Source: Lachnospiraceae bacterium
GTDB lineage: Bacteria > Bacillota > Clostridia > Lachnospirales > Lachnospiraceae
Reading direction: 5' to 3'
NCBI GenBank assembly: GCA_015057585.1
Contig: SVEF01000001.1
Span: 62,001-126,000 of the forward strand
Length of the DNA: 64,000 nucleotides
Below the pieces are notes generated by a model. That model made no database searches. It saw only the letters and a list, made by a program, of their open reading frames with translations, and had not been told where the DNA came from. The position numbers were made by a program, and so were the translations under genes. This document shows positions 27,553 to 50,551 of the stretch, in pieces; position 1 is the stretch's first letter, and each line of letters starts with the position of its first letter.

Positions 27553-27568
27553 GAAATGAGGAAGTGAC

Positions 27569-28513: not shown

Positions 28514-28524
28514 GAGCAAAATAC

Positions 28525-29454
28525 ATGAGTCAGAACATACAGTTAAATTTGGATAATGCAGAGAAATTGACGGCAATTGGAAAGGCCCTTGCTTCGGAGG
28601 TGCGTATTAATTTGTTGAAATTGTTAAACCACTGCAGTCTGAATGTCAATGAGATTGCGGAGCGGCTGAATATTCCTGCATCCTCTGCGGCCATGCATGT
28701 GAAGGTGTTAGAAGAAGCCGGACTTTTGAGAGCAGAACTGTTGCCGGCTGTGCGAGGTTCCATGAAGGTATGTCATAAGGCAGTAGATGAGATTCACCTG
28801 CAGACTATTTCGTCTATGGGAATGGAGAAAGTGGAAGTCATCAACATGCCAATCGGGTCGTTTGTTGATTATAAGGTGGCTCCGACTTGTGGATTAGTGA
28901 GCGATAAAGGACCGATTGGAGAAGAAGATGAGCCGAGATGCTTTTACCATCAGGACAGAGCGACAGCACAGCTTTTGTGGTTTGGAGAAGGATATGTAGA
29001 GTACCGGTTCCCAAATCATGTACTGAAAGAAGCAAGGGAAACCAGGCTGGAACTTTCCATGGAACTATGTTCGGAAGACCACGAGTACAATCTGGATTTT
29101 CCGTCGGATATTACGGTATGGGTGAACAACATGGAGGCTGGCACTTGGAGATGTCCTTCGGATTTCGGCGGTAGACGCGGAATCTGGAATCCGGAGTGGT
29201 GGCCGGATAAAAATACGCAGTTTGGTGTATTAAAAACATGGAAACTGACAGAAGATGGCACTTACATTGACAATGAAAAGGTAAATGACACTACGCTGCA
29301 CGGGTATTCTCTGAATGCATCGGATTATATTTCTGTACGTATCGGGATAAAAGAAACTGCGGAGAAGAAAGGCGGAATCAATCTGTTTGGAGAGAGTTTC
29401 GGTGATTTTGCACAGGGTGTTCGTATGGCAATCTATTACGAAGAGAAAAAATAA
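28525..29454 (+). CDS. ArsR-type transcriptional regulator with a large C-terminal domain
   Basis: A 309-aa protein starting after AGGAGC. The N-terminal winged helix (LTAIGKALASEVRINLLKLL, then NVNEIAERLNIPASSAAMHVKVLEEAGLL) is of ArsR/COG4189 type. From about residue 100 a large beta-rich domain follows, with CFYHQDRATAQLLWFGEGYVEYRF and ITVWVNNMEAGTWRCPSDFGGRRG. No ArsR-type metal-binding cysteine pair is obvious in the helix region. Linkage to two CobW genes suggests it may sense metal status or a related signal and control this operon; that is inference. In other bacteria members of this long family lie next to sugar or metal genes. Confidence 0.85.
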   Translation: MSQNIQLNLDNAEKLTAIGKALASEVRINLLKLLNHCSLNVNEIAERLNIPASSAAMHVKVLEEAGLLRAELLPAVRGSMKVCHKAVDEIHLQTISSMGMEKVEVINMPIGSFVDYKVAPTCGLVSDKGPIGEEDEPRCFYHQDRATAQLLWFGEGYVEYRFPNHVLKEARETRLELSMELCSEDHEYNLDFPSDITVWVNNMEAGTWRCPSDFGGRRGIWNPEWWPDKNTQFGVLKTWKLTEDGTYIDNEKVNDTTLHGYSLNASDYISVRIGIKETAEKKGGINLFGESFGDFAQGVRMAIYYEEKK

Positions 29455-31276: not shown

Positions 31277-31305
31277 TTGACTTTTAGTTGTGCAAAACAT
31301 ACAAT
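31277..31305 (+). promoter_or_regulatory. Promoter of the vWA-tubulin operon
   Basis: TTGACT (31277-31282), 17 bases, TACAAT (31300-31305), predicting transcription from near 31312 and an AT-rich leader of about 115 bases. The spacer contains TTGTGCAAAAC (31288-31298), also found inverted upstream of the CobW promoter. The rest of the 314-base gap from 31115 holds only the aroE promoter and AT-rich sequence. Confidence 0.75.
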
Positions 31306-31428
31306 AATATTGTGTCGAATTTTGCAGGAAAAGCAAATTTTCACAAAATTCTGAATAATAAAACGAATCAAAGTTTTTTCTTGAAGTTTTATTGAGGGTT
31401 AAAAAATAAAGATGGGAGGGTGGTATTT

Positions 31429-34332
31429 TTGAAAAGAATTATCAGTGCAGTCTGTGCAGTATTGATGTTAGTGACATCGCTGGTGTATTTACAGCCGGGC
31501 GTTCAGGCCGCAGCAGAATCGGAGTATCCGACCAGAGTAATTAATGTGGTCTACGATGACTCGGGAAGTATGATTAAAGATCAGGATACGGGAGAGATGT
31601 TAGACATGTGGTGCCAGGCAAAGTATTCTCTGGAAGTGTTTGCGGCGATGCTGGAAGAGAATGACACCATGAATATCTACGTCATGAGTGACTACGTAGA
31701 TGTCTACGAAAAGGCTATTTTAGAACCGCCGATTTTAACATTAAGAGGAAACAGTGATGCAAAAAAGAACGTGGAGAAGGTACGTGCACTTTGTACTGAT
31801 GCCAGTGATACCCCGTTTAATGCAGTGAAAAAGGCATATTCGGATTTGGAAAAAACAGATGCGGATGAAAAGTGGCTGGTAGTCTTAACGGATGGTGTAT
31901 TTCAGAAGGATAAAAAGCCGGGACAAAAGAAAAGGGAAACTTATACCATTGACGAAGTTAATGCATACTTCGCAGAAAAAGATGACAGTGTCAAGGTTAT
32001 GTATTTGGCAATGGGTGAGCTTGCAGCGACGATCGATGAAGTACCGTCTCAAAATATCTTTTATGAAAAAGCGGCAACCAGTGACCAGATTTTAAATAAG
32101 ATTACGGAAATTTGCGGTAGAATTTTTAACCGGAATAGGTTAGTGGTGGATATGGAGACCATGCAAATTGAATTTGACGTTCCAATGACAGAACTTATCG
32201 TATTTGCGCAAGGGGCCAATGTTGAAATTTCAGGAATCAAATCAGAAAAAGGAAAAACCTATTCGGATAATGCTACGCAGGTTCCTGTGAGGTATTCAGA
32301 GAAAGCTACAATAGATGAGCAGTATAAGAATGTAGTAGTAAATCGTAACTTAAAGGGTACGATTTGGGCAAGAAAAGGCGACTATAATCCGGGAACATAT
32401 ACAGTAGGAGTGACCGGTGCAGAAACCATTGAAGTTTACTATAAGCCAAATGTAGATATTATGGCAGAATTGATTGATTCCGACGGAAAAATCATCGAAG
32501 GTGTAAAAGCACTGGAAGCAGGAGAATACACCGTAACCTTTTCCTTAGTAAAGGGCGGAACGAAAGAAAAGATTATAGAATCCAAACTTTTGGGAGAGGT
32601 TACCTATGAAGCTGCGCTTACTATCAATGGGAAGTCGGAAGGGGTTATCGACTCCGGTGATAAGGTGCAGTTGGATGAAGGAACCTTCCAGGTGGATGTT
32701 AAGGCGAAGTACTTAAAATACAATTCGGTTTCGACCAGATTGAATTATACGATTTATCGTGATAAGGCGTTGGATTTGGAAGTCATGGAGGTACCAACCT
32801 ATGTGATTGAAGGGGACGGCGTTTCCAATGATGACGAGCCGATTGTAGTAAAGGCAACACTGGAAGGCAAGGAACTGACAAAAGAACAGTGGAATGTATT
32901 AAAGCAGTTGGATGTGCAGGTGACAGACGAAACAAAAAATGCATTTTCCTTCAAAGCGGTAAAGGGGGATGAAATCGGATATTTTTATGTATATCCGCAA
33001 GTACATACCTCAAGTCTTTCGAGTAAAGAATACACAAAATCGGAATTGAGCTTTAGTACAACCGCCAAGTACGGAAGTGAAACCTGGGGCGGCAGTACGG
33101 AAGGCACCGTTTATTGGGAAGACTGCAGGCAAAAGAGTCTGGACCTTGAAATGCTTTCGGCTCCTCAGTATGTGATAGAGGGAGAAGGCTTGTCTAATGC
33201 GGATGAACCAATTGTTGTGAAAGCAACATTGGAGGGTAAGGAACTGACACCGGAGCAGTGGAGAGCCATGGAACCATTGAGTGTTACCGTGACTGATGGG
33301 ACAAGCGATGTATTTACCTTTGTGGCGGAAAAGAGCGATGAAATCGGTTATTTTCATGTATATCCGCAGATTCATACCGCGAATCTGACAGACACGACCT
33401 ATACACAGACCCGCGTGGATTTTGTCGCACAAGCGCAGTATCAGACAGAAATCTGGAGCGGTAGAACCAATGGTACGGTACCGTTACTCGATAACCGGAG
33501 AAAAGAACTGGGCATTTCCGTGGTTGACAGTCCGGATTATAACGTAACGGCAGAAGGAATCGAAAATGATGACCAGAAAATGGCGGTAAAGGTTACATTA
33601 GAGGGTGAGGAACTGACAGAAGAGCAGTGGCAGTATGTCGACGGCTTAAAGGTAACTCAGGCAGAGAACAAGGATGACAGAGTTTCCTTTGATGTGGAAA
33701 AGAGTGAATTGCCGGGTATCTTCTATGTGACTCCGAAGATAGACGGAGGAGCCCTGTCGGGAGAGGATTACGATGACATCGTATTAAAGATGGAAGCAGA
33801 AGGCGGATATGGCGTAGAACTGTGGTCCGGTGAGGATACGGGAACGGCAAAGTTTTCTGACAGCAGAACTCTTTTTGAAAAATATCGCAATGCCATTATC
33901 TTCGGACTGATTTTACTGGCGTTGTTGATTTTGTTCCTTGGTTATGTGCCTCCGTTTAAACGATACCTGCCAAAGAAATTGAAAAAGAATCCGATGATTA
34001 CCTGTTCACCGACAAGACCGGGACAACGGCCGTATGAGGTTGGAGGAAGATATTCCAAGAATAGAATTACAACCTTTATACCGTATGTGCCGGAAACAGG
34101 AACAATCAGAGTACTTCCTTCCAATACAGGAGTTTCGCCGTTAAAGGTAAAGGCGGCCGGCGGAAACCGTATGGAAATTACAAATACAAAGCTATATGCA
34201 AAGAGACAGAATCTTACGTTTGACGGACAACCGGTACAGGCGGGAGCAAAGAAAAACCTGAAAAAATCAGCCGGAATGATTGTAAGATACAAGACCAAAG
34301 ACACAGAGTATACCTGTGTGCCAAATAAATAA
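31429..34332 (+). CDS. Secreted, membrane-anchored vWA-domain protein with three internal repeats
   Basis: A 967-aa protein. TTG 31429 is chosen: GGGAGGG lies nine bases upstream and the product then starts MKRIISAVCAVLMLV, a clean signal peptide ending at about VQA. GTG 31420 would overlap the site. A vWA domain follows with MIDAS motif DDSGS at residues 43-47. After linkers come three repeats of about 122 residues (about 447-567, 568-690, 693-810), each with a core like PIVVKATLEGKELT.EQW and ending near W.G. A membrane helix lies at about 821-840 (AIIFGLILLALLILFLGYV), then a basic cytosolic domain of about 125 residues that is beta-rich. The vWA part would face outward and the tail inward, near the tubulin-like protein encoded next. 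Confidence 0.92.
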   Translation: MKRIISAVCAVLMLVTSLVYLQPGVQAAAESEYPTRVINVVYDDSGSMIKDQDTGEMLDMWCQAKYSLEVFAAMLEENDTMNIYVMSDYVDVYEKAILEPPILTLRGNSDAKKNVEKVRALCTDASDTPFNAVKKAYSDLEKTDADEKWLVVLTDGVFQKDKKPGQKKRETYTIDEVNAYFAEKDDSVKVMYLAMGELAATIDEVPSQNIFYEKAATSDQILNKITEICGRIFNRNRLVVDMETMQIEFDVPMTELIVFAQGANVEISGIKSEKGKTYSDNATQVPVRYSEKATIDEQYKNVVVNRNLKGTIWARKGDYNPGTYTVGVTGAETIEVYYKPNVDIMAELIDSDGKIIEGVKALEAGEYTVTFSLVKGGTKEKIIESKLLGEVTYEAALTINGKSEGVIDSGDKVQLDEGTFQVDVKAKYLKYNSVSTRLNYTIYRDKALDLEVMEVPTYVIEGDGVSNDDEPIVVKATLEGKELTKEQWNVLKQLDVQVTDETKNAFSFKAVKGDEIGYFYVYPQVHTSSLSSKEYTKSELSFSTTAKYGSETWGGSTEGTVYWEDCRQKSLDLEMLSAPQYVIEGEGLSNADEPIVVKATLEGKELTPEQWRAMEPLSVTVTDGTSDVFTFVAEKSDEIGYFHVYPQIHTANLTDTTYTQTRVDFVAQAQYQTEIWSGRTNGTVPLLDNRRKELGISVVDSPDYNVTAEGIENDDQKMAVKVTLEGEELTEEQWQYVDGLKVTQAENKDDRVSFDVEKSELPGIFYVTPKIDGGALSGEDYDDIVLKMEAEGGYGVELWSGEDTGTAKFSDSRTLFEKYRNAIIFGLILLALLILFLGYVPPFKRYLPKKLKKNPMITCSPTRPGQRPYEVGGRYSKNRITTFIPYVPETGTIRVLPSNTGVSPLKVKAAGGNRMEITNTKLYAKRQNLTFDGQPVQAGAKKNLKKSAGMIVRYKTKDTEYTCVPNK

Positions 34333-34351
34333 AACTTAGGAGGAATGAAAA

Positions 34352-37300
34352 ATGAATGCACCTACATTGATCGTCGGTCTCGGCGGAAAAGGTTCGGATA
34401 TCGCGTTACGTGTATCCAAGATGGTAAGTGAAGAGCAGCGCAAGCAGATTGGGTTTGTTGTATTTGATACCGACGTAAATGAATTACGTCAGATTAAAGA
34501 AGAAAACCCGCATGTTTACACGGTTCAGACTTCGACCAAGTTATCGGTTGGTGAGTACCTGGATATTGATACCCACTCGAGAGATACCTGGTTCCCGGTA
34601 AATGCTATTTTAAACAGTAAGACACTGACAGAAGGTGCCGGACAGGTACGTGCGGTATCCAGAATGGCATTTGAAACCGCTATCCGTGCAGGCAAGATGG
34701 AAACCTTACATAAGGCAATTGAAGATTTATATAAGTTAGAGGGTGAAGAGTACCAGCAGGCACTCAGAGTTATCATTGTAAGTTCCTTAGCAGGCGGTAC
34801 CGGTTCCGGTCTTATTCTTCCGGTAGCTCTTTACATTAAGAACTATCTGGCAACCAGATTCCGTCAGAGTGCAAACATTACCAGAGGCTTCTTCCTGTTA
34901 CCGGAAGTATTCTATGGTGTAATCCCTGGACAGGCAGAACGCAATAACTTAAAGAGTAATGCGTATGCAACCTTAAAGGAAATCGATGCATTCTTAATGA
35001 AGGGTGACTCCACATTACCTGAAAAGTACAGAAACAGCGTAAAGATGGAATTCCCGTGTGCAGCCTCCGGAGAATATGAAGAATATGATGTGAGACCGTT
35101 TGACTTCTGTTTCTTATTTGATGCACAGAACTCCGAGGGTAAGAAATTAAATTCCTTTAATGAATACTTAGACCATGCGGCTAACTGTATTTATGCACAG
35201 TCCATCGGTCCGATGAATAAGAGAAGTAACTCTTCCGAGGATAATACCATCCGTAAACTGTGTGCTGAGCGCGGTAGAAACCGTTATGCCGGTGCCGGTA
35301 CAGCAATGTTAATTTATCCGGTAGATGAGATTAAGCGTTATATGGGTCTTTCCTGGGCAACGGATGCACTTTCCAAGCAGTGGCTGACCTATGATAACAG
35401 ATTCAAGCAGGAGCAGAAGGCAAATGCACAGAAGAAGAAACAGGGCGTACGTGTCGCAGATGTAAGAGAGGACAAGTGTTATATCGGTTCTGTAGAGCAG
35501 TTAGCAAGCAATAAGGATCCGTTTGCAATGTCTATCGTAGAAGTTTGCGGTACCTATGACGAAGCAGGCATCGAAAGAATCTCCGATAAGTGGGATGAAT
35601 ATATTGCAGAATTAAAGAAGAAGATTGAAGTGGAGAATTCCTCCGGACAGAGTGAACTTGACAGTATTCGTGACCAGATTACAGGCTCCATGCAGTCGAT
35701 TGAACCTGGTGCAGGAGAAGAAGCATGGGCTGCTTATACGGAAGTTTATGGTAACTTAAAGAAGTATAAGACCATGATTCAGCGCCATGTCAACGATATG
35801 GCAGGCACGGTTGCTTATGCAATTTTCCATGCAAATGAAGAGAATGTTACCGGAAATAAGCAGAAGCATCAGCTTGAAAAGTATATGAGAAATGCCCAGG
35901 GTGAATTCATGCATCCGAATGCAGTAAGATATTTCCTGTATAAGGTATTAGAGGGTTTAAACAACGAGTACCAGATGGTACATAAAAACGTGGCGGATGC
36001 TGAAAAGTACTTTGATGAATTCGAGAGAAGCATCTTTGACGATACGGATACCGACAGAATTGAGACTGCGGATGATTTGGCAAAGACCAAGAAGGTATCG
36101 GTTGCCGACAGATTGCTGAAGCGCTTAAGCAGTGACCAGGAAGACCTGATTTCGGCATATTCGCTGTACTTGCAGACGGCAAACAAATACAGAGTAGACA
36201 CCATCTATGAGGCGGTACTGGAAGAGGGTATGACTTATGTCAGAAAGCTTTGTGAGGCTTTCCAGAGCTTTTACAGATCCTTTGACGGCAAACTTTCCGG
36301 CATGAGTCGTGAAGTGAAGTCCATCGAGAAGAAGTTTGACCGCATGAAGGGTACGGCAGCCAGATACGTTTGTGCATCTCCGACCTGCTTTACCAAGATG
36401 CTGGAGAAGATGCCGTACGGCGGTGGAAATATTTCCATTGGCAATGAACTTGCAGAGACGATTTACTCCAAGGTACATGCATATGCAATGATGCAGACCA
36501 GAGCAGATAACAATACGTACTTCAGCAACATTTTTGATGTAGATATTTTAGATTACTTTAAGAATATGCTGATGAGAGATTACAGTGATGAAATCGATAT
36601 TGATGTTATTACTGCGATTGAAAAGGAAGCAGAATACGAAAGAGGCATTTTTGACGATGCAAGCTTAGAACAGTATGTTGTGCATGCGTTCAATGAAGCA
36701 AAGGTACTTGCAGCTCCGTTTATCGAAAAGCCGATGGGTGAAGAGAAGGATCCGATTAACTCCTGTACCTTCAATAAGAGTCTGTTTGGAGAAGAGGATT
36801 CCCCAAGATCCCGCATGGTAGACAGAGAACTCAGAAGCTTCGGCGGTGAGCCGGACAATGATGTTCCGAAGAATATGATTATGTTCTATAAGTCCTTCTA
36901 CGGATTGCGTGCGAACGATTTAAGTAAGTTTGCTCCGCCACAGAAGGCAGAAACCTACAACAGGGTAGGCGGCGAATATTTCAAGGCATACTATGAACTG
37001 GTAAGCAAGATTCATCCGGTATCCGATAAGAGCCGTGTGATTACTCCTCATATCGACAGATGGTGGCACAACGTTGCCATGATGCCGGATTTGGATGAAG
37101 GAAATCAGGCAAGACAGGAAACCGAAATCTATGCGGCATTGTTTTGGGGTCTTGTGAATTCTTACATTGATATGGCAGAAACCGGTTATGGTCAGAAGAA
37201 TTACCGACTGAACGTGGAAGATGTGGACTTAGATGAGGATTCCAGTACATTGGTTGTTTCCAACGGTACACCTTGTGATAAGTTATACGAGGTCTGGGAT

Positions 37301-37816
37301 GCCCTTTCCATTTATCCGGAGCTGGTAACCAATATTTTGAGAAGAACCGAGGATGAAATTAAGGCACAGTTAAACGGAAATACGGCATTGGCAGAGAGCA
37401 GCCTGTATAAGGGTCTTGCAAGCTTCCGCATCAGAGAGTTTCCACTCTGCGGTGCGGAAAACAAAGTACGAAGTGTTTTGGATATCCCATTGTTAATTAA
37501 GAGAACCATGCTGTCCGAACTGTATAATGAAGAAAAGGTAATCAACATCCTTAAGGTTATGATTGCCGAACTTCAGAAGTATGTTGCAAGATTTTGCACT
37601 GCAAAGGAATATCCGGAAGTAGCAGGAAAGTTGATTCTCAGCCAGTTTGATAAGTTCCTGGAAGACATTGCATTAGAGAGCAATTGTTGGAAGGATGTAT
37701 ATCACGATTATCTCTTTATGAGAACTTGCAGCAATGTAGCTAAGACTTTAGAAGAGTTAGGCTTACGCGATGCGGCAGAAAATGTAAGAGAAAGAGCAAA
37801 GGAGCTCAGCAAATAA
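34352..37816 (+). CDS. Tubulin/FtsZ-superfamily GTPase-like protein (Tubulin_2 type)
   Basis: A 1154-aa protein with TTAGGAGG before ATG. The N-terminus NAPTLIVGLGGKGSDIALRV gives the T1 loop, VVFDTDVNEL the T3-like region, and SSLAGGTGSGLILPVALYI contains the tubulin signature GGTGSG at residues 148-153. A GTPase core of this kind is known in FtsZ, tubulin, TubZ and the large Tubulin_2 (PF13809) group. The remaining 900 residues are mainly helical, with no membrane segment. It is far longer than FtsZ (about 350-400). It may polymerise on the inner face of the membrane with the vWA and TM partners in this operon. GTP binding is a confident prediction; polymerisation is inference. Confidence 0.9.
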   Translation: MNAPTLIVGLGGKGSDIALRVSKMVSEEQRKQIGFVVFDTDVNELRQIKEENPHVYTVQTSTKLSVGEYLDIDTHSRDTWFPVNAILNSKTLTEGAGQVRAVSRMAFETAIRAGKMETLHKAIEDLYKLEGEEYQQALRVIIVSSLAGGTGSGLILPVALYIKNYLATRFRQSANITRGFFLLPEVFYGVIPGQAERNNLKSNAYATLKEIDAFLMKGDSTLPEKYRNSVKMEFPCAASGEYEEYDVRPFDFCFLFDAQNSEGKKLNSFNEYLDHAANCIYAQSIGPMNKRSNSSEDNTIRKLCAERGRNRYAGAGTAMLIYPVDEIKRYMGLSWATDALSKQWLTYDNRFKQEQKANAQKKKQGVRVADVREDKCYIGSVEQLASNKDPFAMSIVEVCGTYDEAGIERISDKWDEYIAELKKKIEVENSSGQSELDSIRDQITGSMQSIEPGAGEEAWAAYTEVYGNLKKYKTMIQRHVNDMAGTVAYAIFHANEENVTGNKQKHQLEKYMRNAQGEFMHPNAVRYFLYKVLEGLNNEYQMVHKNVADAEKYFDEFERSIFDDTDTDRIETADDLAKTKKVSVADRLLKRLSSDQEDLISAYSLYLQTANKYRVDTIYEAVLEEGMTYVRKLCEAFQSFYRSFDGKLSGMSREVKSIEKKFDRMKGTAARYVCASPTCFTKMLEKMPYGGGNISIGNELAETIYSKVHAYAMMQTRADNNTYFSNIFDVDILDYFKNMLMRDYSDEIDIDVITAIEKEAEYERGIFDDASLEQYVVHAFNEAKVLAAPFIEKPMGEEKDPINSCTFNKSLFGEEDSPRSRMVDRELRSFGGEPDNDVPKNMIMFYKSFYGLRANDLSKFAPPQKAETYNRVGGEYFKAYYELVSKIHPVSDKSRVITPHIDRWWHNVAMMPDLDEGNQARQETEIYAALFWGLVNSYIDMAETGYGQKNYRLNVEDVDLDEDSSTLVVSNGTPCDKLYEVWDALSIYPELVTNILRRTEDEIKAQLNGNTALAESSLYKGLASFRIREFPLCGAENKVRSVLDIPLLIKRTMLSELYNEEKVINILKVMIAELQKYVARFCTAKEYPEVAGKLILSQFDKFLEDIALESNCWKDVYHDYLFMRTCSNVAKTLEELGLRDAAENVRERAKELSK

Positions 37817-37842
37817 TTCTGTAAGAAAAGGTGGTGAAATTT

Positions 37843-39789
37843 GTGTATTCTGTATTAATACAAAACAAAAAAACGATGGAATCGTTTCATGAGTTTCATC
37901 CACTGTTTTTAGAGACATTGGGAAAGGATATTGTTCTTTGCCGGTGGTTGGAAGCGGGGACAACAATTGATACGGCATTGCCGGAACTCAGTCAATTGAC
38001 GGATTCGGTAGAAAGATGGCGTGCAATTATTGTCCACGTGGAAGACGAGGAGGAAATGAAAAAATATGAAAGGCATCCGGACAATCCGTATGACTTTCTT
38101 ATCAATTCTTCAAAGGCAGATGCAACAAAGGAGAGCCCGGTGCCTTTGATTCGATTGACACATATGTTGGGCGGAGTTCCCGCCCCGGAAATTGAGTATG
38201 AAAGCCGTGTAGTTGCAGAAAAAGCCAAAGTACCGAGAACGATTTATGTTCCGAAACCGCGCGGTGAGGAAACACGTTTGCACGCAGAACTTTTAGAGCG
38301 GTATGATTTCAACGGTAAATTGCCGACGGAAATCATTGTAATCACGTTACGGCTTAGAAAAAAAGAGCAAATGGACCCGACACGAAGAACGTGGAATCCG
38401 TTACAGGAATCCAAAAGTTCGGAGTTTTGGCGAAGGAATAATTATCCGGGAAAATGCAGATTTGTTGTTTGCGACTATATTAACGAAGGTGTAATACAGA
38501 AGAGAGCAGATATGTTTTCCTTCTGGACCAGCGTTTTGCTCCTTGCGACAAACGATATTGATTCCAGCTCTCTGCAGGCATACCGTTTGTATACCATGAA
38601 GGTTCATTACAATAAGTTTATTATGGAAGAAACCTTTAAGTATAAGGCAAAGACGTTGCGTGGGGTACGGAGATACATCAATTACGAATTGGATAAGGAC
38701 ATCAAGAAAAAGAATGCGGTCAGAAAAGAACTTCCGCCTTATGCAGACTATTCGGTATCTGTCGATTCCGGTTATCCGAGCCGTTCGGACGTTGTAGTTG
38801 ACACGGGAGAATTCAAACTGAGTGCGCGAAGTGAGTCTGCGGAAAAAGAGAAGTGGAGAAAACTGAGCCTTGAAGCAGAGGAAAAACTGGAGGATGCGTT
38901 TAAGCAGGCGGAACGTGTTTTGGAAGAGCGTGCGGATGAAATACGGTATCACAGTAAGATTAAAACAGAGGACCGGATTGAGATTCAGCCTTTGGACCGA
39001 TTCCAGATGGAAGATGTCAATACCGACTTGTTTACGCTGTACGGTAAAATCTTAGAGAAACAGAATAATCTGCCGCGTCTTCAGTTGGGTAAGAAGACGA
39101 AAACAGCGGAGCGTTCCGGAAATGTAAAGAATGCGGTGACAGCGCGTATTACGAAGGGCTGGGTTATGGATATTGTCCTGATACTTTTGGGGCTTTTGGT
39201 CCTTTCACTGATTCCGGCGGTGCTGTTTACGTATTTTCTCGGCATGGGAAAGACGCTTGGTACGGTGCTTGTTACACTTGCTTTGCTGCTTGCATTTTTG
39301 ATTTTGCTGTTTATTCTTTTGAAGTTCCAAAGACACAGGTTCATCAAGAAAATTATCGCTTACAATGATGTGTTAGAGGATAATTTACATGAACTTGTGG
39401 AAAACCTGACAAAATATCAGGAATTTGTAGGAGATGTGGTTTCTTATGCCAGAGGCAAGAATTATCTGGAACTTCTGCGTCAAAGAATGTATATGTTAGC
39501 AAATACCTATAGCAAATACGAGATTCATTTAAGAGCCACAAATGCATTTTTAGATAAAATCGCACGATGGGCAGCCGCATTTTATATTCCGTTAACGTCA
39601 GAGTATGAAGAGGATGAAGAGGTTGAGATTGATTTGGATGCTGTTCCAAACTACAACCACATGTATACCTTCGAAACGGACTGGGAACATCAGGTGCCGT
39701 TTAACCAGACGGGGGATTATATGAACGCACCGTTCCATTTTATTGAGCGGGTAGAAATCAAGAGAGAGGAGTTGTACGAAGATGCGTGA
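37843..39789 (+). CDS. Two-TM protein of the tubulin-like system
   Basis: A 648-aa protein. GTG 37843 is chosen because AAGGTGGTG ends six bases before it, giving MYSVLIQNKKTMESFHEFH; upstream GTG codons fall inside the ribosome site. The N-terminal domain of about 120 residues has alternating strands and helices (KDIVLCRWLEAG, WRAIIVHVEDEEEM). A charged middle follows. Two adjacent membrane helices lie at about 441-465 and 471-495 (IVLILLGLLVLSLIPAVLF and TVLVTLALLLAFLILLFI). The cytosolic C-terminal part is helical and ends REELYEDA. It probably anchors the tubulin-like protein or its filament to the membrane, an inference from position. The start of the next gene overlaps its stop by eight bases. 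No known family recognised. Confidence 0.85.
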   Translation: MYSVLIQNKKTMESFHEFHPLFLETLGKDIVLCRWLEAGTTIDTALPELSQLTDSVERWRAIIVHVEDEEEMKKYERHPDNPYDFLINSSKADATKESPVPLIRLTHMLGGVPAPEIEYESRVVAEKAKVPRTIYVPKPRGEETRLHAELLERYDFNGKLPTEIIVITLRLRKKEQMDPTRRTWNPLQESKSSEFWRRNNYPGKCRFVVCDYINEGVIQKRADMFSFWTSVLLLATNDIDSSSLQAYRLYTMKVHYNKFIMEETFKYKAKTLRGVRRYINYELDKDIKKKNAVRKELPPYADYSVSVDSGYPSRSDVVVDTGEFKLSARSESAEKEKWRKLSLEAEEKLEDAFKQAERVLEERADEIRYHSKIKTEDRIEIQPLDRFQMEDVNTDLFTLYGKILEKQNNLPRLQLGKKTKTAERSGNVKNAVTARITKGWVMDIVLILLGLLVLSLIPAVLFTYFLGMGKTLGTVLVTLALLLAFLILLFILLKFQRHRFIKKIIAYNDVLEDNLHELVENLTKYQEFVGDVVSYARGKNYLELLRQRMYMLANTYSKYEIHLRATNAFLDKIARWAAAFYIPLTSEYEEDEEVEIDLDAVPNYNHMYTFETDWEHQVPFNQTGDYMNAPFHFIERVEIKREELYEDA

Positions 39790-42700
39790 GTTTTTGACAA
39801 GAATCGGGACAACGATTGCGATTATCGCAGTCTGTACCTTAGCGCAGTGTCTTACGAATACAAAGAAAAAAGACAGAAGTAAGCAGACCGTACTTCCTCT
39901 GGTGGCAATTTTATATTACGTTGTCGCCGTTACGGCAAGCTTTGTTTTGCTGTTAAAGATTGAGCGGTTTTTAGAAATATTGGAAAAGCTGATCAGTATG
40001 TTTGATTTGTGTTCGGTTGTGATTTTCAATGTGGCACTTTATGCAGGATATCTTGCAATCAAGAGTGTGGCTTACGGACTTTGCCTGATTATTTTCCGTA
40101 CCATCCGTTTCCCGGGACTTACGGAGTTCTTCTACGAGTATGACCAGGAGTACAATGAGTGGTTTTTACAGGAACGTTGGGCAAACGTATACCGGTTGTT
40201 TAAGTGGTTTACCATTGTCGGTACGGTATTTTGCGGTACGGCAATCGGAGTCATTTGGCATCTCGGATATGAGTCGCAGTATTATACCTGTATTTTCCCG
40301 GTCGTTGTACAGATTGTAGTAGCTGAAATCTTTTGTTTCCTGGGCGGATATACGAAATCGACCTATGAACATGAGGTTATCGGTGAAGACAGTCATGCGC
40401 AGAAAATCAGTAATTTCTATAAAATCAGGGAAATATTAGAAAAGACATTTCCGCGAGAAGTGTTGACAGCAAGCACAGGATCGGAGTATTCGTATGCTTC
40501 CGGTGTCATCGATTTATTAAAGCAGTTGGAAGAGTCGGATGAGACAAATGAAAAGATAGTATCAGAGTATTTCAAATTCGGTGAAGGAGAAGAAGAATAC
40601 GATGTTGACTGTATTCAGGCAACATTAAAACTGCTGAAACATGAAAATGTTGTATTTTTCAATCCGTTCTATCGGGATTTGGGAAAATACCTGGCACTTC
40701 CTTTCATGAATTCTCTTCTGGCAGGGAAAAAATGTCTGGTTATAGTGGGACGTTCTTCTACAAGAGAAGATATTAAGCTTTGGCTGGAGGAAATGCTGAA
40801 GGATCACGCAAAAATCCAGTCGCTGTGGCGTGTACGGGAATTGTCCTCACATGAACCGGAGTGTGAAGTCGGAATTTTAAACTTCTCACAATTATATGAT
40901 TTAAGAATTATTGAAAAAAATAGAGAATTTTTAAAGGATGTCGGTTTTGTATTTATATTAGAACCGTCTCTGATTGTAAATACCGGCCAGGTTGGTGTCA
41001 GCATTCTGGCACAGCAGATGGTAAACATCGGAGAGAAGCCGGTATATTGCATTGCGGACCGTTTGGTAGATGGACTGGTGGATACGATGTCCCATCTTCT
41101 TCAGACGGAAATCACGGAAGTGGTTGCTCCGCCGGTTTCCAGAAACATCCATACCGCAATGGCATGGAATGCTGACGGAGATTATTTAAGACAACGATTG
41201 TTCGGAAAGCAGACACATTATCTTGGTAATGGTGTGGAACTTGCAGCCGTAGCGGTAAAGAACCAGATTCCGAAGGTCATCTGGTTTGGTGAGTCAAAGG
41301 TGCCGCTTCGTGATATCAAGTGGATTGCAAGCCAGTGTTATCCGGTATTGTGTAAGTACATGAATATTCCGATACAGCAGCAGGCATTCTGGGAGAAACT
41401 TCAGTTTGTTTCGAATATCTGGAGTGTTCCGGAAGAGGACGAGCAGTTTGTCATTGCCGAAGACGAATTTATTAGTATTTTCAGTACTTTAAGAACATTT
41501 CTTTCCAGAGGAAAGAGACAGACATTTGTCAATGTCCTTTCGGAAAATTATCTGCTGAGAGACTATATGAGACATAATCCGCAGATGTTTGCAACGAATC
41601 CGAATGCCATTCCTTCTTTGGTGCCGGATTATGCAAAGACGGAGAGAAATACGTTACTTAAATTAATCTTAAATATGACATACCGCGCAGTAACGGAAGA
41701 GGAAATCATTAGTGAATTCCATCTGGTTGGACTTGATACGAACGATGCTTTCCATACGATATCCAGCCTTCTTACAAAGTATACCTATGCGACGGATGAT
41801 ATCTTTGATATTCAGACTGTAAGAGGGGAATTTGACGGTGTTTCCGTAACATCACAAAATTATTACAGGGTTGTTCCGGAAAAGTTCCAGATGTACTTTG
41901 GTGAGGTTTTACAGAATGCATACTACATCTGTGAAGAAGAAGTCGATGGCAGCGAGTATTTGGATTCCAAACTGATGGGACATGTTACTCAGACGATTCT
42001 TCCGGGTCAGTTCGTTACATACGAAGGAAAATACTACCTGGTAAAGCATATTTCTTCAATCAATGGTGTTGTATTGCGAAGAGCATCCAACCTGTTCCAT
42101 GGAAGAAAATATTACAGACAGATCAGAGAGTATCGTTTTTCTGAAAATGCAACAGAAGAGATTGTCAACTCTAAGACCGTTATGGGAGTAGAAGTTACTG
42201 TATTCCGTACAGACTTTAGTGTAGCCACAACCGGTTACCTTGAGATGAACAACAACAACGATTTACGCTCTGCAAGGGTACATGATTTTTCAAATGACCC
42301 GTCTGTAGATATCTACACAAGAAGATATCACAATAAAGCGGTACTTCGTGTGCAGATGCCGAATAGTAATTCTAAGGTACGTTATACCATTTGTATGCTG
42401 TTATCCGAGATTTTTAAGTCGATTTTCCCGAATGCATGGCAGTACCTTGCTGTGACTTCGGAGATGCCGGATGATATCGACGGCATGCTGAATCATATGG
42501 TTTATAGCGTATCCGGAGACGTAAATCCGGAATATATCTATATCATTGAGGACAGTGAATTAGACCTTGGTTTGCTGGATGCAGTAGAAAAGAACCTGGT
42601 ATCTTTATTGGAACTTGTTACCGACTTCATCACCTGGCATTTTGAAAAGATGAGAGAACCGGCAGAGAAAGATCCGGAAATTCATACCGTGGAATTCCCG

Positions 42701-44182
42701 CCGAAGCCGAAAAAGAAGAATAAACTCTTGGAAAAGATCAAGAAAATTCTTCGTTTGGGCAAGAAGGAGGAAAACTCGGATACTCAGACGGAGTCCGCTG
42801 AGGATGGTGTAACTGAAGAGACTTCTGAGGCTACGTCGGAAACACTTTCCAAGAAAGAAGCAAAGGCAGCAAAGAAGCGGGAGCGTAAAGAAACCAGAGA
42901 AAAGAAGAAGCAGGAAAGAAAACAGGCAAAGGCTGAAAAGAAATTGCAGAAAGAAAAAGAACGTGCAGAGAAGAAATTACAGAAAAAGCGTAAAAAACAG
43001 GGCACAGAGGAAGAAGTAGCAGAAGAACAGGAACAGCTTCCTGAGGAAACAGAAACTACGGAAACCGCGGAGGTTGCAGAGGTTGAGGAAACTGTTGAAG
43101 AAGCAGTTGCAGCAACAGCGGAAGACGCAGAAACTATAGAGCCTGTAGCTGCAGAAATTCCGGTAGAACCGGAAACAGAGTCTGTGCCGATTGTGCAGCC
43201 TGAATTTAAGGTTTCTGAAGGCTGGAGCCCGAATGGTGAGAAACCGGATTACGGTAAGTTAGACGGTACGGATATCTTTGATGAAACCAGCGGTAAAGCG
43301 GCAGAAGAAGGCTTTGAGGAATTCTTTGAAGCAGCAGGAATGCCGGCTGGTGAAAAGAGCCGTTACCAGGAAGAGTGTTATCTGAAGTTTGGTTTTGATG
43401 AAATTGATGCCAGATTGAAACTGGATGAAGTGCGTACGTATCTGACCTTGCACGGATTTGCTGACAATGCTCTTTTGAAGGCAAGAAGACGTGAACCATT
43501 TGAAGAGACAATTCTTGATATGGATGCGACCAATCATTGTGATTTCTGTCAGAAACCGTTAAGCGGAGTCAGTTATGAAAAACTGACAGATGGCAGAATC
43601 CGTTGTAACGATTGTAGTTCCACGGCAATTGTTTCTGTAGAGGCATTCAGAGAATTGTTTTTCCAGTCGTTGCAGATGATGGAAAGTTTCTTTGCAATCG
43701 AGTTCAAGGTGCCGATTAAGGTAAAGACCCTGGATGCAAAGAATATCGCACGCGGAGCCGGCAGTGTGTATGAGCCGACGACAGCAGTTGCTGCCCGTGT
43801 ACTTGGTTATGCACAGCGCAAGGACGGTATGTTCTATCTGAATGTAGAAAATGGTAGTCCTCGTCTGGCCACACTGACTACGATGGTGCATGAGATGACA
43901 CATATCTGGCAATATGTCAACTGGAAGGATTCCGAAATCAAAAAGGCATATCCGGACAAGTGGCAGAGAGATATTGTCTATGAAGGTATGGCCATGTGGG
44001 TACAGGTACAGTATCTGTATCTCATCGGAGAAGAGTCTTATGCGAAGCAGGAAGAAGCATATGCTATGCTGAGGGAAGATGCTTATGGTATCGGATTCCG
44101 TATGTGCTGTGAGAAGTATCCGCTCATTAAGGACTCTTCGCTGGTAACACATACGCCGTTCAATCATTTTCCACCTCTTTAA
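39782..44182 (+). CDS. Five-TM protein with degenerate helicase-like region, zinc ribbon and HExxH zincin domain
   Basis: A 1466-aa protein, ATG overlapping the previous gene. Five membrane segments lie within the first 195 residues. Residues about 290-980 form a large cytosolic region. Its order recalls an SF2 helicase (NPFYRDLGKYLALPF, VIVGRSSTREDI, FVFILEPSLIVNTGQVG, YCIADRL), but P-loop and DEAD residues are lost, and a late IYIIEDSELDLGLLDAV resembles the DUF1998 region. A Lys/Glu-rich linker (about 980-1150) follows. Then a four-Cys ribbon (CDFC 1253-1256, CNDC 1275-1278) and a metallopeptidase-like domain with HEMTH at 1370-1374 and a third-ligand Glu at about 1401. Catalysis by the zincin part is plausible. 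The helicase reading is inference only. This gene is the largest of the operon. Confidence 0.85.
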   Translation: MREFLTRIGTTIAIIAVCTLAQCLTNTKKKDRSKQTVLPLVAILYYVVAVTASFVLLLKIERFLEILEKLISMFDLCSVVIFNVALYAGYLAIKSVAYGLCLIIFRTIRFPGLTEFFYEYDQEYNEWFLQERWANVYRLFKWFTIVGTVFCGTAIGVIWHLGYESQYYTCIFPVVVQIVVAEIFCFLGGYTKSTYEHEVIGEDSHAQKISNFYKIREILEKTFPREVLTASTGSEYSYASGVIDLLKQLEESDETNEKIVSEYFKFGEGEEEYDVDCIQATLKLLKHENVVFFNPFYRDLGKYLALPFMNSLLAGKKCLVIVGRSSTREDIKLWLEEMLKDHAKIQSLWRVRELSSHEPECEVGILNFSQLYDLRIIEKNREFLKDVGFVFILEPSLIVNTGQVGVSILAQQMVNIGEKPVYCIADRLVDGLVDTMSHLLQTEITEVVAPPVSRNIHTAMAWNADGDYLRQRLFGKQTHYLGNGVELAAVAVKNQIPKVIWFGESKVPLRDIKWIASQCYPVLCKYMNIPIQQQAFWEKLQFVSNIWSVPEEDEQFVIAEDEFISIFSTLRTFLSRGKRQTFVNVLSENYLLRDYMRHNPQMFATNPNAIPSLVPDYAKTERNTLLKLILNMTYRAVTEEEIISEFHLVGLDTNDAFHTISSLLTKYTYATDDIFDIQTVRGEFDGVSVTSQNYYRVVPEKFQMYFGEVLQNAYYICEEEVDGSEYLDSKLMGHVTQTILPGQFVTYEGKYYLVKHISSINGVVLRRASNLFHGRKYYRQIREYRFSENATEEIVNSKTVMGVEVTVFRTDFSVATTGYLEMNNNNDLRSARVHDFSNDPSVDIYTRRYHNKAVLRVQMPNSNSKVRYTICMLLSEIFKSIFPNAWQYLAVTSEMPDDIDGMLNHMVYSVSGDVNPEYIYIIEDSELDLGLLDAVEKNLVSLLELVTDFITWHFEKMREPAEKDPEIHTVEFPPKPKKKNKLLEKIKKILRLGKKEENSDTQTESAEDGVTEETSEATSETLSKKEAKAAKKRERKETREKKKQERKQAKAEKKLQKEKERAEKKLQKKRKKQGTEEEVAEEQEQLPEETETTETAEVAEVEETVEEAVAATAEDAETIEPVAAEIPVEPETESVPIVQPEFKVSEGWSPNGEKPDYGKLDGTDIFDETSGKAAEEGFEEFFEAAGMPAGEKSRYQEECYLKFGFDEIDARLKLDEVRTYLTLHGFADNALLKARRREPFEETILDMDATNHCDFCQKPLSGVSYEKLTDGRIRCNDCSSTAIVSVEAFRELFFQSLQMMESFFAIEFKVPIKVKTLDAKNIARGAGSVYEPTTAVAARVLGYAQRKDGMFYLNVENGSPRLATLTTMVHEMTHIWQYVNWKDSEIKKAYPDKWQRDIVYEGMAMWVQVQYLYLIGEESYAKQEEAYAMLREDAYGIGFRMCCEKYPLIKDSSLVTHTPFNHFPPL

Positions 44183-44206
44183 TAACCGGAAAGCGGGGTG
44201 AATCCT

Positions 44207-44785
44207 ATGGAATCATTACTTGATATATACGGTGACATCTCTCAGGAGGTGAAACGTATTTTAGACCGGATTGCAGGTGTGGAAAAACAGATTCAGGAAC
44301 TGAAACAACAGCGGATGAGTGAATATATCGAACGGATTAGTCACTTGAGAAGTCAATTGATAAAGATTGACGAATATGAGGTAATCATTCAAGGGTATAT
44401 TCAGATGGCAGAAGCAGGCTTGTCCAGTAAGAATGTGTTAACGATTGAAGCACCTCCGGGCTACAAAGTAAATTTAAACAGATTGCGTCAGTGGGCCTTA
44501 AAAATTGATCCGTTAGCATTAGAGGATCCGGAGATGCCGGACGATCCGTATGCGCAGAAATTACTTGCGGTTGCTTTATGTGATCTTCGTTTTCTGGAGC
44601 AGAAAAAAGTGGAGTTTAAATGTCGAATTGTTGAACTTGAAGAAGAGATGGCGAACGAAACGACAGATGATATCAAAGCACTGGAAGAAAAACATCGCAA
44701 ACTCGAGAAAGAGTTGCAGGATTACGGATGCAGTGAAGAGGTTCTGCGTCTGGTGAAAGAAATGAGTTTAAAAAACGTAACATAA
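44207..44785 (+). CDS. Small helical cytosolic protein, last gene of the tubulin-like system
   Basis: A 192-aa protein. ATG 44207 is preferred over the in-frame GTG 44198, since GGGGTG at 44195-44200 is the likely ribosome site. It has no membrane segment. Residues about 5-60 (VKRILDRIAGVEKQIQELKQQ) and about 125-185 (LEQKKVEFKCRIVELEEEM, IKALEEKHRKLEKELQDYG) are strongly helical and charged, likely coiled coil, separated by a Pro-rich part (APPGYKV, DPEMPDDPYA). It could bridge partners or bind filaments. It lies 24 bases after the zincin gene and before a strong terminator, so it is the last gene of the operon. No family recognised. Confidence 0.82.
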   Translation: MESLLDIYGDISQEVKRILDRIAGVEKQIQELKQQRMSEYIERISHLRSQLIKIDEYEVIIQGYIQMAEAGLSSKNVLTIEAPPGYKVNLNRLRQWALKIDPLALEDPEMPDDPYAQKLLAVALCDLRFLEQKKVEFKCRIVELEEEMANETTDDIKALEEKHRKLEKELQDYGCSEEVLRLVKEMSLKNVT

Positions 44786-44799
44786 TAAATGTACATCCG

Positions 44800-44836
44800 A
44801 AAGCGGGAGAAAGGAAACTTTCTCCCGCTTTTTTTG
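44800..44836 (+). terminator. Strong terminator closing the tubulin-like operon
   Basis: A perfect 14-bp stem (AAAGCGGGAGAAAG at 44800-44813, complement at 44818-44831), GAAA tetraloop, and a run of seven or more T residues. Confidence 0.93.
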
Positions 44837-44891: not shown

Positions 44892-45896
44892 ATGAAAGAC
44901 TTTTATAAAATTTTTCCGGCAGGATTACGGGAACGTATGGAAAAGTTGCATCTGTTACAGAATGGTTTCACAGAGCTGCGGCTCCGCTGTAATGCACCGT
45001 TGATTTTATTAAAGGGAAGAGAAGAATTCTTTTTACATAGTACTTGCGGAGGGCTCACGAAAGAGGCAGAGCACGCATATCGGATTTCTGTGAATGAAAT
45101 CCGGGAGATGATGGAGTATATCAGTAATTTTTCTGTCTATGCGTATGAAGATGAAATGCGTCAGGGATTTCTTACGATTCAGGGGGGACATCGAATCGGA
45201 ATATGCGGAAAGGCAGTAATACAAGATAAGAAAATCAAAACGATACGGAATATCTCGTTTATGAATCTTCGTTTGGCAAGAGAAAAAAAAGGTTGTGCAG
45301 ATACGGTGCTGCCTTATCTGTTTGAAAACCGGAGGTTCTGTCATACTTTGGTGGTTTCTCCGCCGGGGTGTGGAAAGACAACGTTACTGAGAGATATAAT
45401 TCGACAGTTGTCGAATGGAGCAACATGTCTTGCTCCGGATGGTAAAAAAATAAGCCTTCCGGGCCGGAAGGTAGGTATTGTGGACGAACGGTCAGAAGTG
45501 GCAGCCTGTTACCACGGAGTACCGCAAAATGACCTTGGTATCCGTACGGATGTACTGGACGGGTGTCCAAAATCTACAGGAGTAGAATTGCTGCTTCGAT
45601 CAATGTCGGAGGATGTGATTGCCATGGATGAACTGGGTGGTGAAGAAGATATTGCCGTGGTGAAAAAAAGTATTTTCTGTGGTTGCAAAATCCTTGCGAC
45701 AGCACATGGAGAAGATAAAAAAGAGTGGTTTGAACAAGGGGGAAAAGAAGCAAAAGTATCGGATTTGCCATTTGAACGGTATGTGTTTTTGAAATCGGAT
45801 GGACCACCGGGGCAAGTTTCTGCGGTATGTGATGCAAAAGGCAGGGTACTGTTTGCAGAAAATACAGAGGGGTGGTTTGGAGGAGAGAGAACATGA
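44892..45896 (+). CDS. spoIIIAA: Stage III sporulation protein AA, secretion-type ATPase
   Basis: A 334-aa ATPase of the mother cell that works with the SpoIIIA ring and SpoIIQ channel to sustain the forespore. It belongs to the type II/IV secretion ATPase family. Walker A is PPGCGKTTLLRDI and the region KVGIVDERSEVAACYHG is typical. Walker B lies at SEDVIAMDELGGEEDI, and ILATAHGEDKKEWF follows. Length fits the family (about 300-340). GGAGGAGG precedes the ATG. The gene ends with an ATGA overlap with spoIIIAB. It is first in the eight-gene operon, with a sigma-E-like promoter. Confidence 0.96.
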   Translation: MKDFYKIFPAGLRERMEKLHLLQNGFTELRLRCNAPLILLKGREEFFLHSTCGGLTKEAEHAYRISVNEIREMMEYISNFSVYAYEDEMRQGFLTIQGGHRIGICGKAVIQDKKIKTIRNISFMNLRLAREKKGCADTVLPYLFENRRFCHTLVVSPPGCGKTTLLRDIIRQLSNGATCLAPDGKKISLPGRKVGIVDERSEVAACYHGVPQNDLGIRTDVLDGCPKSTGVELLLRSMSEDVIAMDELGGEEDIAVVKKSIFCGCKILATAHGEDKKEWFEQGGKEAKVSDLPFERYVFLKSDGPPGQVSAVCDAKGRVLFAENTEGWFGGERT

Positions 45897-46414
45897 TACT
45901 GAAAACGGTTGGTGCAATTTTAGTGCTTGCTTCTGCAACAGCCATCGGAAGCATACTGGCGTTTCAGGTAAAGGAACAGGAACGGTGGCTTGCAGATATG
46001 AAACTGTCACTCATTTTGCTTTCCGGAGAACTGGAGTACCACCAAATACCGTTCCCGGAGGCAATGCGGCTGACAGGAACAAAGCATAAAGGAAGAATGC
46101 GGGATTTTTTCCGGAAGGCAGGAGAAGAACTGGAAAAAAGAGAAGGAGAAAGCTTGTCTGTGGTTTGGAGACGGCAGGCGGAAAGATGCTTAAAACAGTC
46201 GCCTTTGAAAAAAGAGCAGAAGGAAGAGTTTTCGGAAATCGGAATCTATTTCGCGGGGGCCGACAGTAATGTAAGAAAAAAAGCCCTGGAATTTTATTTC
46301 TCCCGTCTGGAGGAGGAAATTGTACGGATGAGGAGTACGGAGAAAGAAAAAGCGTACTTGTACCGGATGCTTGGAATGCTTGGTGGAGTTTTTTTACTGA
46401 TACTTGCATGTTAA
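45893..46414 (+). CDS. spoIIIAB: Stage III sporulation protein AB
   Basis: A 173-aa protein with membrane segments at each end (GAILVLASATAIGSILAF and MLGMLGGVFLLIL) and a helical cytosolic middle. It resembles the T2SSF-like platform proteins that pair with the SpoIIIAA ATPase. The start is ATG 45893, following GGAGGAG and overlapping the spoIIIAA stop; the longer frame from 45872 is within spoIIIAA and not used. RRQAERCLKQSPLKKEQ and RKKALEFYFSRLEEE match the family pattern. It needs SpoIIIAA for function in model spore formers. Confidence 0.93.
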   Translation: MILKTVGAILVLASATAIGSILAFQVKEQERWLADMKLSLILLSGELEYHQIPFPEAMRLTGTKHKGRMRDFFRKAGEELEKREGESLSVVWRRQAERCLKQSPLKKEQKEEFSEIGIYFAGADSNVRKKALEFYFSRLEEEIVRMRSTEKEKAYLYRMLGMLGGVFLLILAC

Positions 46415-46425
46415 GAGAGGATTGA

Positions 46426-46626
46426 GTGGATATGACGATACAGATGATTTTTAAAATTGCCGCAGTCGGTATCCTGGTGTCGGTGCTAAATCAAGTGCTA
46501 AAGCATTCGGGACGAGAAGACCAGGCGTATCTGACCAGTCTGGCAGGACTGATTTTAGTCTTATTCTGGATTATTCCATATGTGGCTGAATTATTTGAAA
46601 CCATACAGGAACTGTTTGGGCTATGA
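46426..46626 (+). CDS. spoIIIAC: Stage III sporulation protein AC
   Basis: A small membrane protein, 66 aa from GTG 46426 (five bases after GAGAGG) or 64 aa from ATG 46432; the choice is open. The sequence IFKIAAVGILVSVLNQVLKHSGRED is the typical SpoIIIAC start, followed by a second membrane helix (AGLILVLFWIIPYVAEL). It is part of the SpoIIIA feeding-tube complex in the mother-cell membrane around the forespore. Confidence 0.93.
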   Translation: MDMTIQMIFKIAAVGILVSVLNQVLKHSGREDQAYLTSLAGLILVLFWIIPYVAELFETIQELFGL

Positions 46627-46653
46627 CAGGAAAGGCCCGGAAAGGCGGACACT

Positions 46654-47031
46654 ATGTTGAGAACAGCGTTGCTGGGAATTCTTACCGTTGTGATTGCGAT
46701 GGCAATGAAACAGGGAAAGGCAGAATTCGGACTGTTTGTATCTTTTACAGGAAGTATTTTGATTGCCTGGGTCGCAGTTAGGCTGTTAGAAGGAATCAGT
46801 GGGAGTTTGAACCGGTTGGAACATATTCTTACGGTGGATCTGGAATATATAAAGCTTATGATCAAAATGATCGGAATTACCTACCTATCCGAGTTTTCCT
46901 CTGCCTTGTGCAAAGACGCAGGATATTCGGCCGTTGCAGGCCAGATAGAATTAGTCGGGAAACTGACGATTCTTACAATCGGGATGCCGATTGTGCTCGC
47001 ACTGTTTGAAATGATGGTAAGTATGGTATAA
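46654..47031 (+). CDS. spoIIIAD: Stage III sporulation protein AD
   Basis: A 125-aa membrane protein with three or four helices: LLGILTVVIAMAMKQ, FGLFVSFTGSILIAWVAV and a C-terminal GKLTILTIGMPIVLALFEM. KLMIKMIGITYLSEFSSALCKDAGYSAVAGQIEL is the conserved SpoIIIAD core. It sits between AC and AE as in all known spoIIIA operons and is thought to form part of the membrane platform. Start ATG 46654 with GAAAGGCGG upstream. Confidence 0.94.
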   Translation: MLRTALLGILTVVIAMAMKQGKAEFGLFVSFTGSILIAWVAVRLLEGISGSLNRLEHILTVDLEYIKLMIKMIGITYLSEFSSALCKDAGYSAVAGQIELVGKLTILTIGMPIVLALFEMMVSMV

Positions 47032-47044
47032 GGCGGACATATAG

Positions 47045-49237: not shown

Positions 49238-49265
49238 TATGCCAACCGGCAGAAGTGGAGGATGG

Positions 49266-49955: not shown

Positions 49956-49977
49956 TTACATAAAAAGCAAGAAAAAG

Positions 49978-50006
49978 TTTGCAAAACGGAGATAGTTTGG
50001 TATAAT
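49978..50006 (+). promoter_or_regulatory. Promoter before asp23
   Basis: TTTGCA (49978-49983), 17 bases, TATAAT (50001-50006), about 63 bases before the ATG. The -10 is perfect. It allows the following genes to be expressed in growing cells apart from the sporulation operon. Confidence 0.6.
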
Positions 50007-50069
50007 AAACGAAAAGAGAAAGAATTTAACGTGGTGATGTATGCACCATGATGATTAGGAGGATATACT

Positions 50070-50459: not shown

Positions 50460-50469
50460 AGGAAAATGA

Positions 50470-50513
50470 CAATAGAAAGCCTGCGATGCGGGTTTTCTAT
50501 TGTTGTGATTTTT
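50470..50513 (+). terminator. Hairpin between asp23 and nusB
   Basis: CAATAGAAA pairs with TTTCTATTG (50470-50502) around an inner CCTGC/GCGGG stem; GTGATTTTT follows. It is a weak terminator or attenuator that may lower, but not stop, reading into nusB, which has no obvious promoter of its own. Confidence 0.6.
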
Positions 50514-50551
50514 ACGAGAAAAAGATTCCCAGTGGAGATGGAGAGAAAAAT

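Follow-up and report, generated by a model that had tools for sequence, protein, structure and literature searches.

Introduction

Tubulin_2 proteins, or FtsZl1, have been known since 2010, and in the literature found no experiment on any member is reported. The main text of the study that described them ties FtsZl1 to partners with a von Willebrand factor A (vWA) domain, predicts a role in membrane remodelling and calls filament formation uncertain, with Clostridia among the member genomes (Makarova & Koonin, 2010; PMC2875224). Firmicutes and actinobacterial tubulins that occur with vWA, DO-GTPase and GAP1-N2 proteins are treated as conflict systems by Kaur et al (2020; PMC7159879). Here, we describe a five-gene operon from the 3.0-Mb genome of a gut-type Lachnospiraceae bacterium, contained in a 64,000-nt stretch of DNA (the window). 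It encodes a vWA protein, a Tubulin_2 protein, a protein with two transmembrane segments (TM2), a five-transmembrane protein that joins a predicted degenerate helicase fold to a zincin domain (ZIN), and a coiled-coil-like protein (CC).

An earlier note on this DNA had recognised an FtsZ-like family with vWA partners, different accompanying proteins and no OmpA-type protein, and this description holds. As in the FtsZl1 systems, the locus combines a Tubulin_2 GTPase domain bearing the GGTGSG loop with a long helical C-terminus, an adjacent vWA gene and transmembrane (TM) partners. Unlike those systems, its membrane-centred set includes no OmpA, protein kinase or P-loop GTPase, and neither TM2 nor the dead MrfA-type helicase with its zincin is named in the main text of PMC2875224, the supplement on families A1-B9 aside.

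Results

The operon encodes a true Tubulin_2 protein

The five open reading frames (ORFs) lie on the + strand between aroE (- strand) and spoIIIAA, tightly packed with intergenic gaps of 19, 14, -8 and 15 nt, all where the earlier note had placed them between a promoter-like site and a terminator. The intrinsic terminator hairpin (44800-44836, + strand) is strong, at -29.7 kcal/mol in the folded stretch with a z of -7.0 and 0/200 shuffles as good; the evidence is weak for the promoter-like site TTGACT-17-TACAAT (31277-31305, + strand; 10/12 score), because six such sites occur in the stretch against 2.0 expected.

The second gene (34352-37816, + strand) encodes the 1154-aa (amino acid) protein, a true member of Tubulin_2 / FtsZl1: Pfam Tubulin_2 (PF13809) matches aa 6-340 with E 9.9e-59 and 199.8 bits over a cut-off of 27. 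The match to PF00091 is weak, and a genome search with that family returned this protein and one ordinary FtsZ. The GTPase domain covers aa 1-305 (34352-35266). An AlphaFold (AF2) model with a predicted local distance difference test score (pLDDT) of 71 superposes on FtsZ and CetZ with Z 17-18 and a root-mean-square deviation of ~3 A over ~190 residues, all inside this domain; beyond aa ~320, the other ~800 residues are modelled mostly as helix. The tubulin-type T4 GTP-binding loop reported earlier is indeed present (aa 148-153; 34793-34810, + strand) and is kept in 13/13 homologues, in one of them as GGTGAG; the T1 glycines are also kept in 13 relatives. A DN pair at 297-298 resembles the T7 loop, N298 being kept in 13/13 and D297 in 11/13. 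This pair was placed by eye, and its assignment to T7 is putative because the model is of low confidence at these residues; the profile alignment to the host FtsZ covered a short N-terminal stretch only. Matches to FtsZ stop near aa 305, leaving the FtsZ C-terminal domain unmatched, with no separate search made for a hidden FtsZ-type domain, and the profile gave nothing meaningful by sequence against the PDB. The protein is predicted to be a cytosolic FtsZl1-type GTPase.

Membrane partners and an extracellular vWA domain

Three of the five operon products are membrane proteins by hydropathy. The first gene (31420-34332, + strand) encodes the 970-aa vWA protein, described earlier as secreted with one TM segment, in agreement with the N-terminal hydrophobic stretch at aa 7-25, a likely signal peptide, and the TM segment at aa 825-843, which is followed by a tail of ~125 aa that is likely cytoplasmic. 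Pfam VWA is not scored in this protein and is scored in two relatives only; the residues of its extracellular metal ion-dependent adhesion site (MIDAS), D46, S48, S50, T131 and D158, are invariant across 13 vWA homologues. The extracellular part also contains a stalk of three ~123-aa repeats (32800-33750, + strand; 369-nt spacing), which the earlier note had overlooked. Most relatives, at 713-747 aa, are ~230 aa shorter.

TM2, the third gene product (652 aa; 37831-39789, + strand), is a core component and has the two TM segments announced for it, at aa 448-466 and 479-497, forming a TM hairpin (aa 448-497). It has no known family in Pfam, and comparison with the PDB gave chance-level or helical matches only.

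The five-TM protein combines a predicted pseudo-helicase with a zincin

ZIN (1466 aa; 39782-44182, + strand) had been read as a five-TM protein with a zincin domain. Both features are found; its main domain was missed in that reading, and the zincin proves not to be a strict part of the core. The N-terminal TM region (aa 1-190; 39782-40351, + strand) has about five helices by model and hydropathy, the first loop being positively charged. About half of the protein (aa ~238-959; 40493-42658, + strand) is then a degenerate MrfA/YprA-type superfamily 2 (SF2) helicase fold according to the model (pLDDT 71.5). The best Foldseek match is MrfA, a DUF1998 helicase (6znp_A, E 8.5e-20, 759 columns), the next helicases standing at ~1e-7, and VIA-align superposes ZIN on MrfA (6zns) with Z 16.8 over 539 residues spanning aa 238-959. 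Note that DEAD-box cores match equally high (Z up to 18.3), mostly over the RecA part only. At the profile level, ZIN is collinear with 11 Clostridia MrfA proteins from motif I to the C-terminal signature, with P 0.003-0.011 and an hhalign probability of only 4-10%, which is weak alone.

The catalytic motifs of this fold are lost. Motif I reads NPFYRDL or similar where MrfA has TPTASGKT, motif II xEPS or similar where MrfA has VIDExH, and motif III CIADR or similar where MrfA has CCSAT. GKT and DExH, that is Walker A and Walker B, are kept in 0/11 ZIN members and present in all 11 of the Clostridia MrfA used for comparison, and the C-terminal Cys4 zinc cluster of MrfA (CGCETGCPSC) aligns to a Cys-free stretch of ZIN. 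Since no member retains GKT or DExH, ZIN is by sequence a pseudo-helicase.

A charged linker leads to a zinc ribbon and a zincin peptidase domain (aa 1253-1466; 43538-44179, + strand), whose HE[LM]TH...EG motif (HEMTH...EG here) is invariant in nine members. In these 9 sequences the C-terminus has both the HExxH and the downstream Glu ligand of gluzincins; the zincin motif is thus intact and a peptidase is predicted. The domain is weakly like DUF6782/BSP peptidases. A DA1-like peptidase was considered and not adopted, PF12315 having matched one member only (E 0.17). The ZIN profile, too, gave nothing meaningful by sequence against the PDB. The zincin is absent in two relatives (L018 and L044) and a separate gene in another (L028).

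The core gene order is conserved in an accessory, patchy module

We searched for relatives in samples of 299 genomes from the family, 391 from the class and 398 from the phylum, plus one genome-contig scan. The genome-wide scan with one protein gave a single relative, and the majority were obtained from the whole-genome samples. The order and strand vWA-tubulin-TM2-ZIN are kept in all nine relatives whose core is fully readable (L016, L017, L018, L019, L020, L021, L028, L041 and L042). One further locus (L044) has the same order, its TM2 being highly diverged and additional genes separating vWA from tubulin; with this exception, vWA lies directly upstream of tubulin in every relative of this type with a readable flank. 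Fragments at contig ends (L043, L045 and L049) are consistent with the core order as far as the contigs reach. The ZIN profile is found in 7/299 family genomes, all seven also carrying the long tubulin; in the class sample, the two occur together in G332, G363, G368 and G614; G488 (E 8e-4) is the single, marginal exception. Because core order and the co-occurrence of ZIN with the long tubulin are kept, the gene set is a real module, and the possibility that the genes are not conserved together, raised beforehand as a ground for abandoning the proposal, did not materialise.

The module is accessory and patchy. The genomes of two sister species in the genus (78% and 86% complete) have, by eye, genes for a response regulator and a HAD phosphatase, among others, in the aroE-spoIIIAA slot. 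In that of a third sister species (86% complete, tubulin search negative), the same HAD gene precedes spoIIIAA at the end of a contig, with no operon upstream. A mobile-element origin was considered and rejected: no relatives were found in viral contigs, and plasmid matches are limited to the GTPase domain at 21-33% identity. A contig labelled 'Bacteriophage sp.' (MT836542.1; L049) was considered as a phage copy and rejected: this record, unverified and 9.8 kb long, has the operon start along with genes usual for bacteria, such as a SAICAR-synthase-like ORF, and is therefore read as chromosomal.

Lachnospiraceae also have another Tubulin_2 type (L022-L026), which is shorter (~800-955 aa) and has no vWA-TM2-ZIN partners. 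Its neighbours are varied and include RF3, a PLD-type synthase and, in L025, spoIIIA.

Accessory genes vary from locus to locus

The last gene of the operon encodes CC (195 aa; 44198-44785, + strand), a short coiled-coil-like protein as the earlier note had it, with no significant family match. In L028, the sequence homologous to CC forms the N-terminus of an FtsK/SpoIIIE-type ATPase, whose Walker A reads GASGSGKST. PADLOC matches of CC (e.g. CorA, 2e-5) look like coiled-coil matches and were set aside.

In relatives, accessory genes sit downstream or upstream of the core. A RyR/TrkA_N gene and a Castor-like RCK channel gene accompany it in L017, where they overlap or lie 13 bp apart, and in L019; L021 has a homologue of the RyR-pair protein only. 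This RyR + TrkA_N / Castor/Pollux-like RCK membrane pair is downstream of the tubulin operon, at L017 16741-19901, L019 16780-19901 and L021 18642-19901 (first member only). It may be a nucleotide-gated channel effector. Transglutaminase genes with a leading hydrophobic stretch are found at L016 and L021, and TIR genes at L021 and L042. Phage RyR-domain proteins are reported to bind or degrade TIR-made cyclic ADP-ribose (cADPR) signals (PMC13232231), and a link between TIR, RyR and channel would be plausible by analogy with that report.

Neighbouring genes in the window

The spoIIIA operon (44892-50953; gene names beyond spoIIIAA by eye) comes right after the terminator and is an unrelated neighbour of the tubulin operon. 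Upstream, two BspA-type leucine-rich-repeat proteins are encoded near each other, one of 1834 aa with Listeria-Bacteroides repeats (20026-25530) and one of 589 aa with an SH3 domain (18132-19901). Two CobW-type GTPase-like genes, the one at 27569 assigned by eye, precede the gene of an ArsR-type regulator whose C-terminal part is long (26428-29454); together they look like a metal-handling cluster. At the other end, a large protein with at least 7 Big_2 Ig-like repeats (60449-64000) continues past the window end.

Discussion

Taken together, the parts, the topology from hydropathy, the conservation, the loss of helicase motifs and the intact zincin and MIDAS motifs, all drawn from sequence and structure prediction, lead us to favour, tentatively and at somewhat less than even odds, a membrane-spanning sensing-and-response complex in which the tubulin-like GTPase would act as cytosolic switch or scaffold. 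On this best reading, the complex would resemble conflict systems more than a cytoskeleton for division. Outside the cell, the vWA protein would bind a ligand or take a mechanical load and pass a signal through its tail to the GTPase, which would then oligomerise under the membrane on platforms of the two membrane proteins. The dead helicase may act as a surface on which partners or nucleic acid dock, and not as a motor, and assembly would turn on a locus-specific effector: the zincin here, and elsewhere the RyR/RCK pair, TIR, transglutaminase or FtsK-type ATPase. By analogy with the tubulin-vWA-DO-GTPase conflict systems, the likeliest role would be a response set off by phage or by attack on the envelope, and not routine division or shape; in its favour, other Clostridia tubulins of this family sit in DO-GTPase2/GAP1-N2 loci that Kaur et al assigned to conflict.

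Several observations weigh against this proposal. The link from vWA to GTPase is one that we infer, the AF2 models, for which homologues were few, reach moderate confidence (pLDDT 71), and PADLOC models gave no convincing match to the four core proteins. Several accessory genes encode, by eye, envelope proteins, namely lipoproteins, SH3 and L,D-transpeptidase-like proteins, and such envelope-type genes, not classical immune effectors, would equally fit envelope maintenance. Note also that the readings as sensing and response, membrane remodelling and envelope surveillance overlap, and that one experiment could support several of them.

The remodelling or vesicle machine that Makarova & Koonin predicted for FtsZl1, in which the tubulin-like protein would polymerise at the inner face of the membrane and bend it, the vWA and TM proteins would be anchors and the zincin a maturation protease, shares with this operon the same family and vWA pairing, and gains from the membrane proteins making up 3/5 of the products and from the envelope proteins among the accessory genes. 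We nevertheless consider it rather unlikely: FtsZ-like treadmilling is doubtful because the FtsZ C-terminal domain is unmatched and T7 only partly recognisable, and the dead helicase, TIR and RyR/RCK genes are left unexplained. On the first of these grounds 'cytoskeletal', as the earlier note had it, was an overstatement, the doubt on filaments having been raised also by Makarova & Koonin.

Less probable still is a system by which anaerobic Firmicutes would survey envelope stress or the cell wall: the vWA stalk would sense tension or damage of the wall, and the cytosolic complex would release a signal through cleavage by the zincin or the opening of a channel. The extracellular MIDAS vWA with its repeats would suit it, as would the transglutaminases with a leading hydrophobic stretch, the SH3 protein and the lipoproteins beside several copies; an accessory, patchy distribution is however unusual for housekeeping, and no two-component or sigma/anti-sigma gene is found among the operon proteins by Pfam. 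A role in sporulation, suggested by the position directly upstream of spoIIIAA, with the spoIIIA operon beginning 107 bp downstream, appears very improbable: a strong terminator separates the two, sister species have no such operon before their spoIIIAA, which occupies the same place, and spoIIIAA/spoIIIAE occur in 0/7 of the relatives compared (L016-L021, L028) within the ~20 kb read.

Returning to the sensing-and-response complex, a more specific version, which we regard as possible and somewhat less probable than the general one, is a bacterial immune or stress machine of an unrecognised class, tethered to the membrane. In it, the extracellular vWA sensor would drive assembly of the tubulin-like GTPase on a membrane-bound, catalytically dead YprA/MrfA helicase and thereby switch on interchangeable effectors (zincin, RyR-gated RCK channel, TIR or FtsK pump). 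If true, this would connect the field of bacterial tubulins with the separate one of YprA-type immune helicases and provide a case of a helicase fold that has become a scaffold at the membrane. The operon offers a compact, recurrent four-gene core of Clostridia with a testable enzyme (the predicted zincin peptidase), a putative pseudo-enzyme (the dead helicase) and a predicted GTPase.

Comparison with known systems

With the GAP1-N2 DO-GTPase systems (PMC7159879), the locus shares a Firmicutes tubulin with a C-terminal coiled coil, an extracellular TM-anchored vWA protein and variable effectors; it differs in having a predicted pseudo-helicase in place of DO-GTPase and GAP1. By Pfam, no DO-GTPase or other P-loop GTPase is found in the five operon proteins, while the control loci L027 and L047 score PF19993; nor is there a Pfam match to GAP1 in the operon, and the TM2 and ZIN profiles do not match the GAP1 of L048. 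TM2, ZIN and vWA were also considered as homologues of the partner proteins of DO-GTPase systems, and no profile match was obtained. Other Clostridia Tubulin_2 loci in the same clades do carry these partners, L027 and L047 with DO-GTPase2 and L048 with GAP1-N2. The vWA-tubulin pair stays while the other partners swap, DO-GTPase/GAP1 versus TM2/pseudo-helicase. In L046 (5633-12750), two nearly adjacent Tubulin_2-like genes stand beside a vWA-like gene, which is the Firmicutes tubulin-pair layout of PMC7159879.

ZIN resembles the YprA/MrfA (DUF1998) helicases of MrfAB, DISARM, Druantia and ARMADA (PMC12458937) in its predicted collinear RecA1-RecA2-canopy arrangement over ~720 residues. Unlike these, it is predicted to be membrane-anchored, lacks Walker A, Walker B and Cys4, and has a zincin attached, not a nuclease. 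It also differs in lying next to tubulin and vWA genes, of which the main text of the 2025 YprA survey (PMC12458937) makes no mention.

Overall, the earlier claim of an 'undescribed' system stands in part: the tubulin family and its pairing with vWA date in print from 2010, and the conflict systems of Firmicutes with tubulin and vWA from 2020, whereas the combination vWA-tubulin-TM2-pseudo-helicase looks new, no earlier description having been found in the literature, supplementary lists aside. The locus thus belongs to a known kind of bacterial tubulin system, with a partner set and layout that look new.

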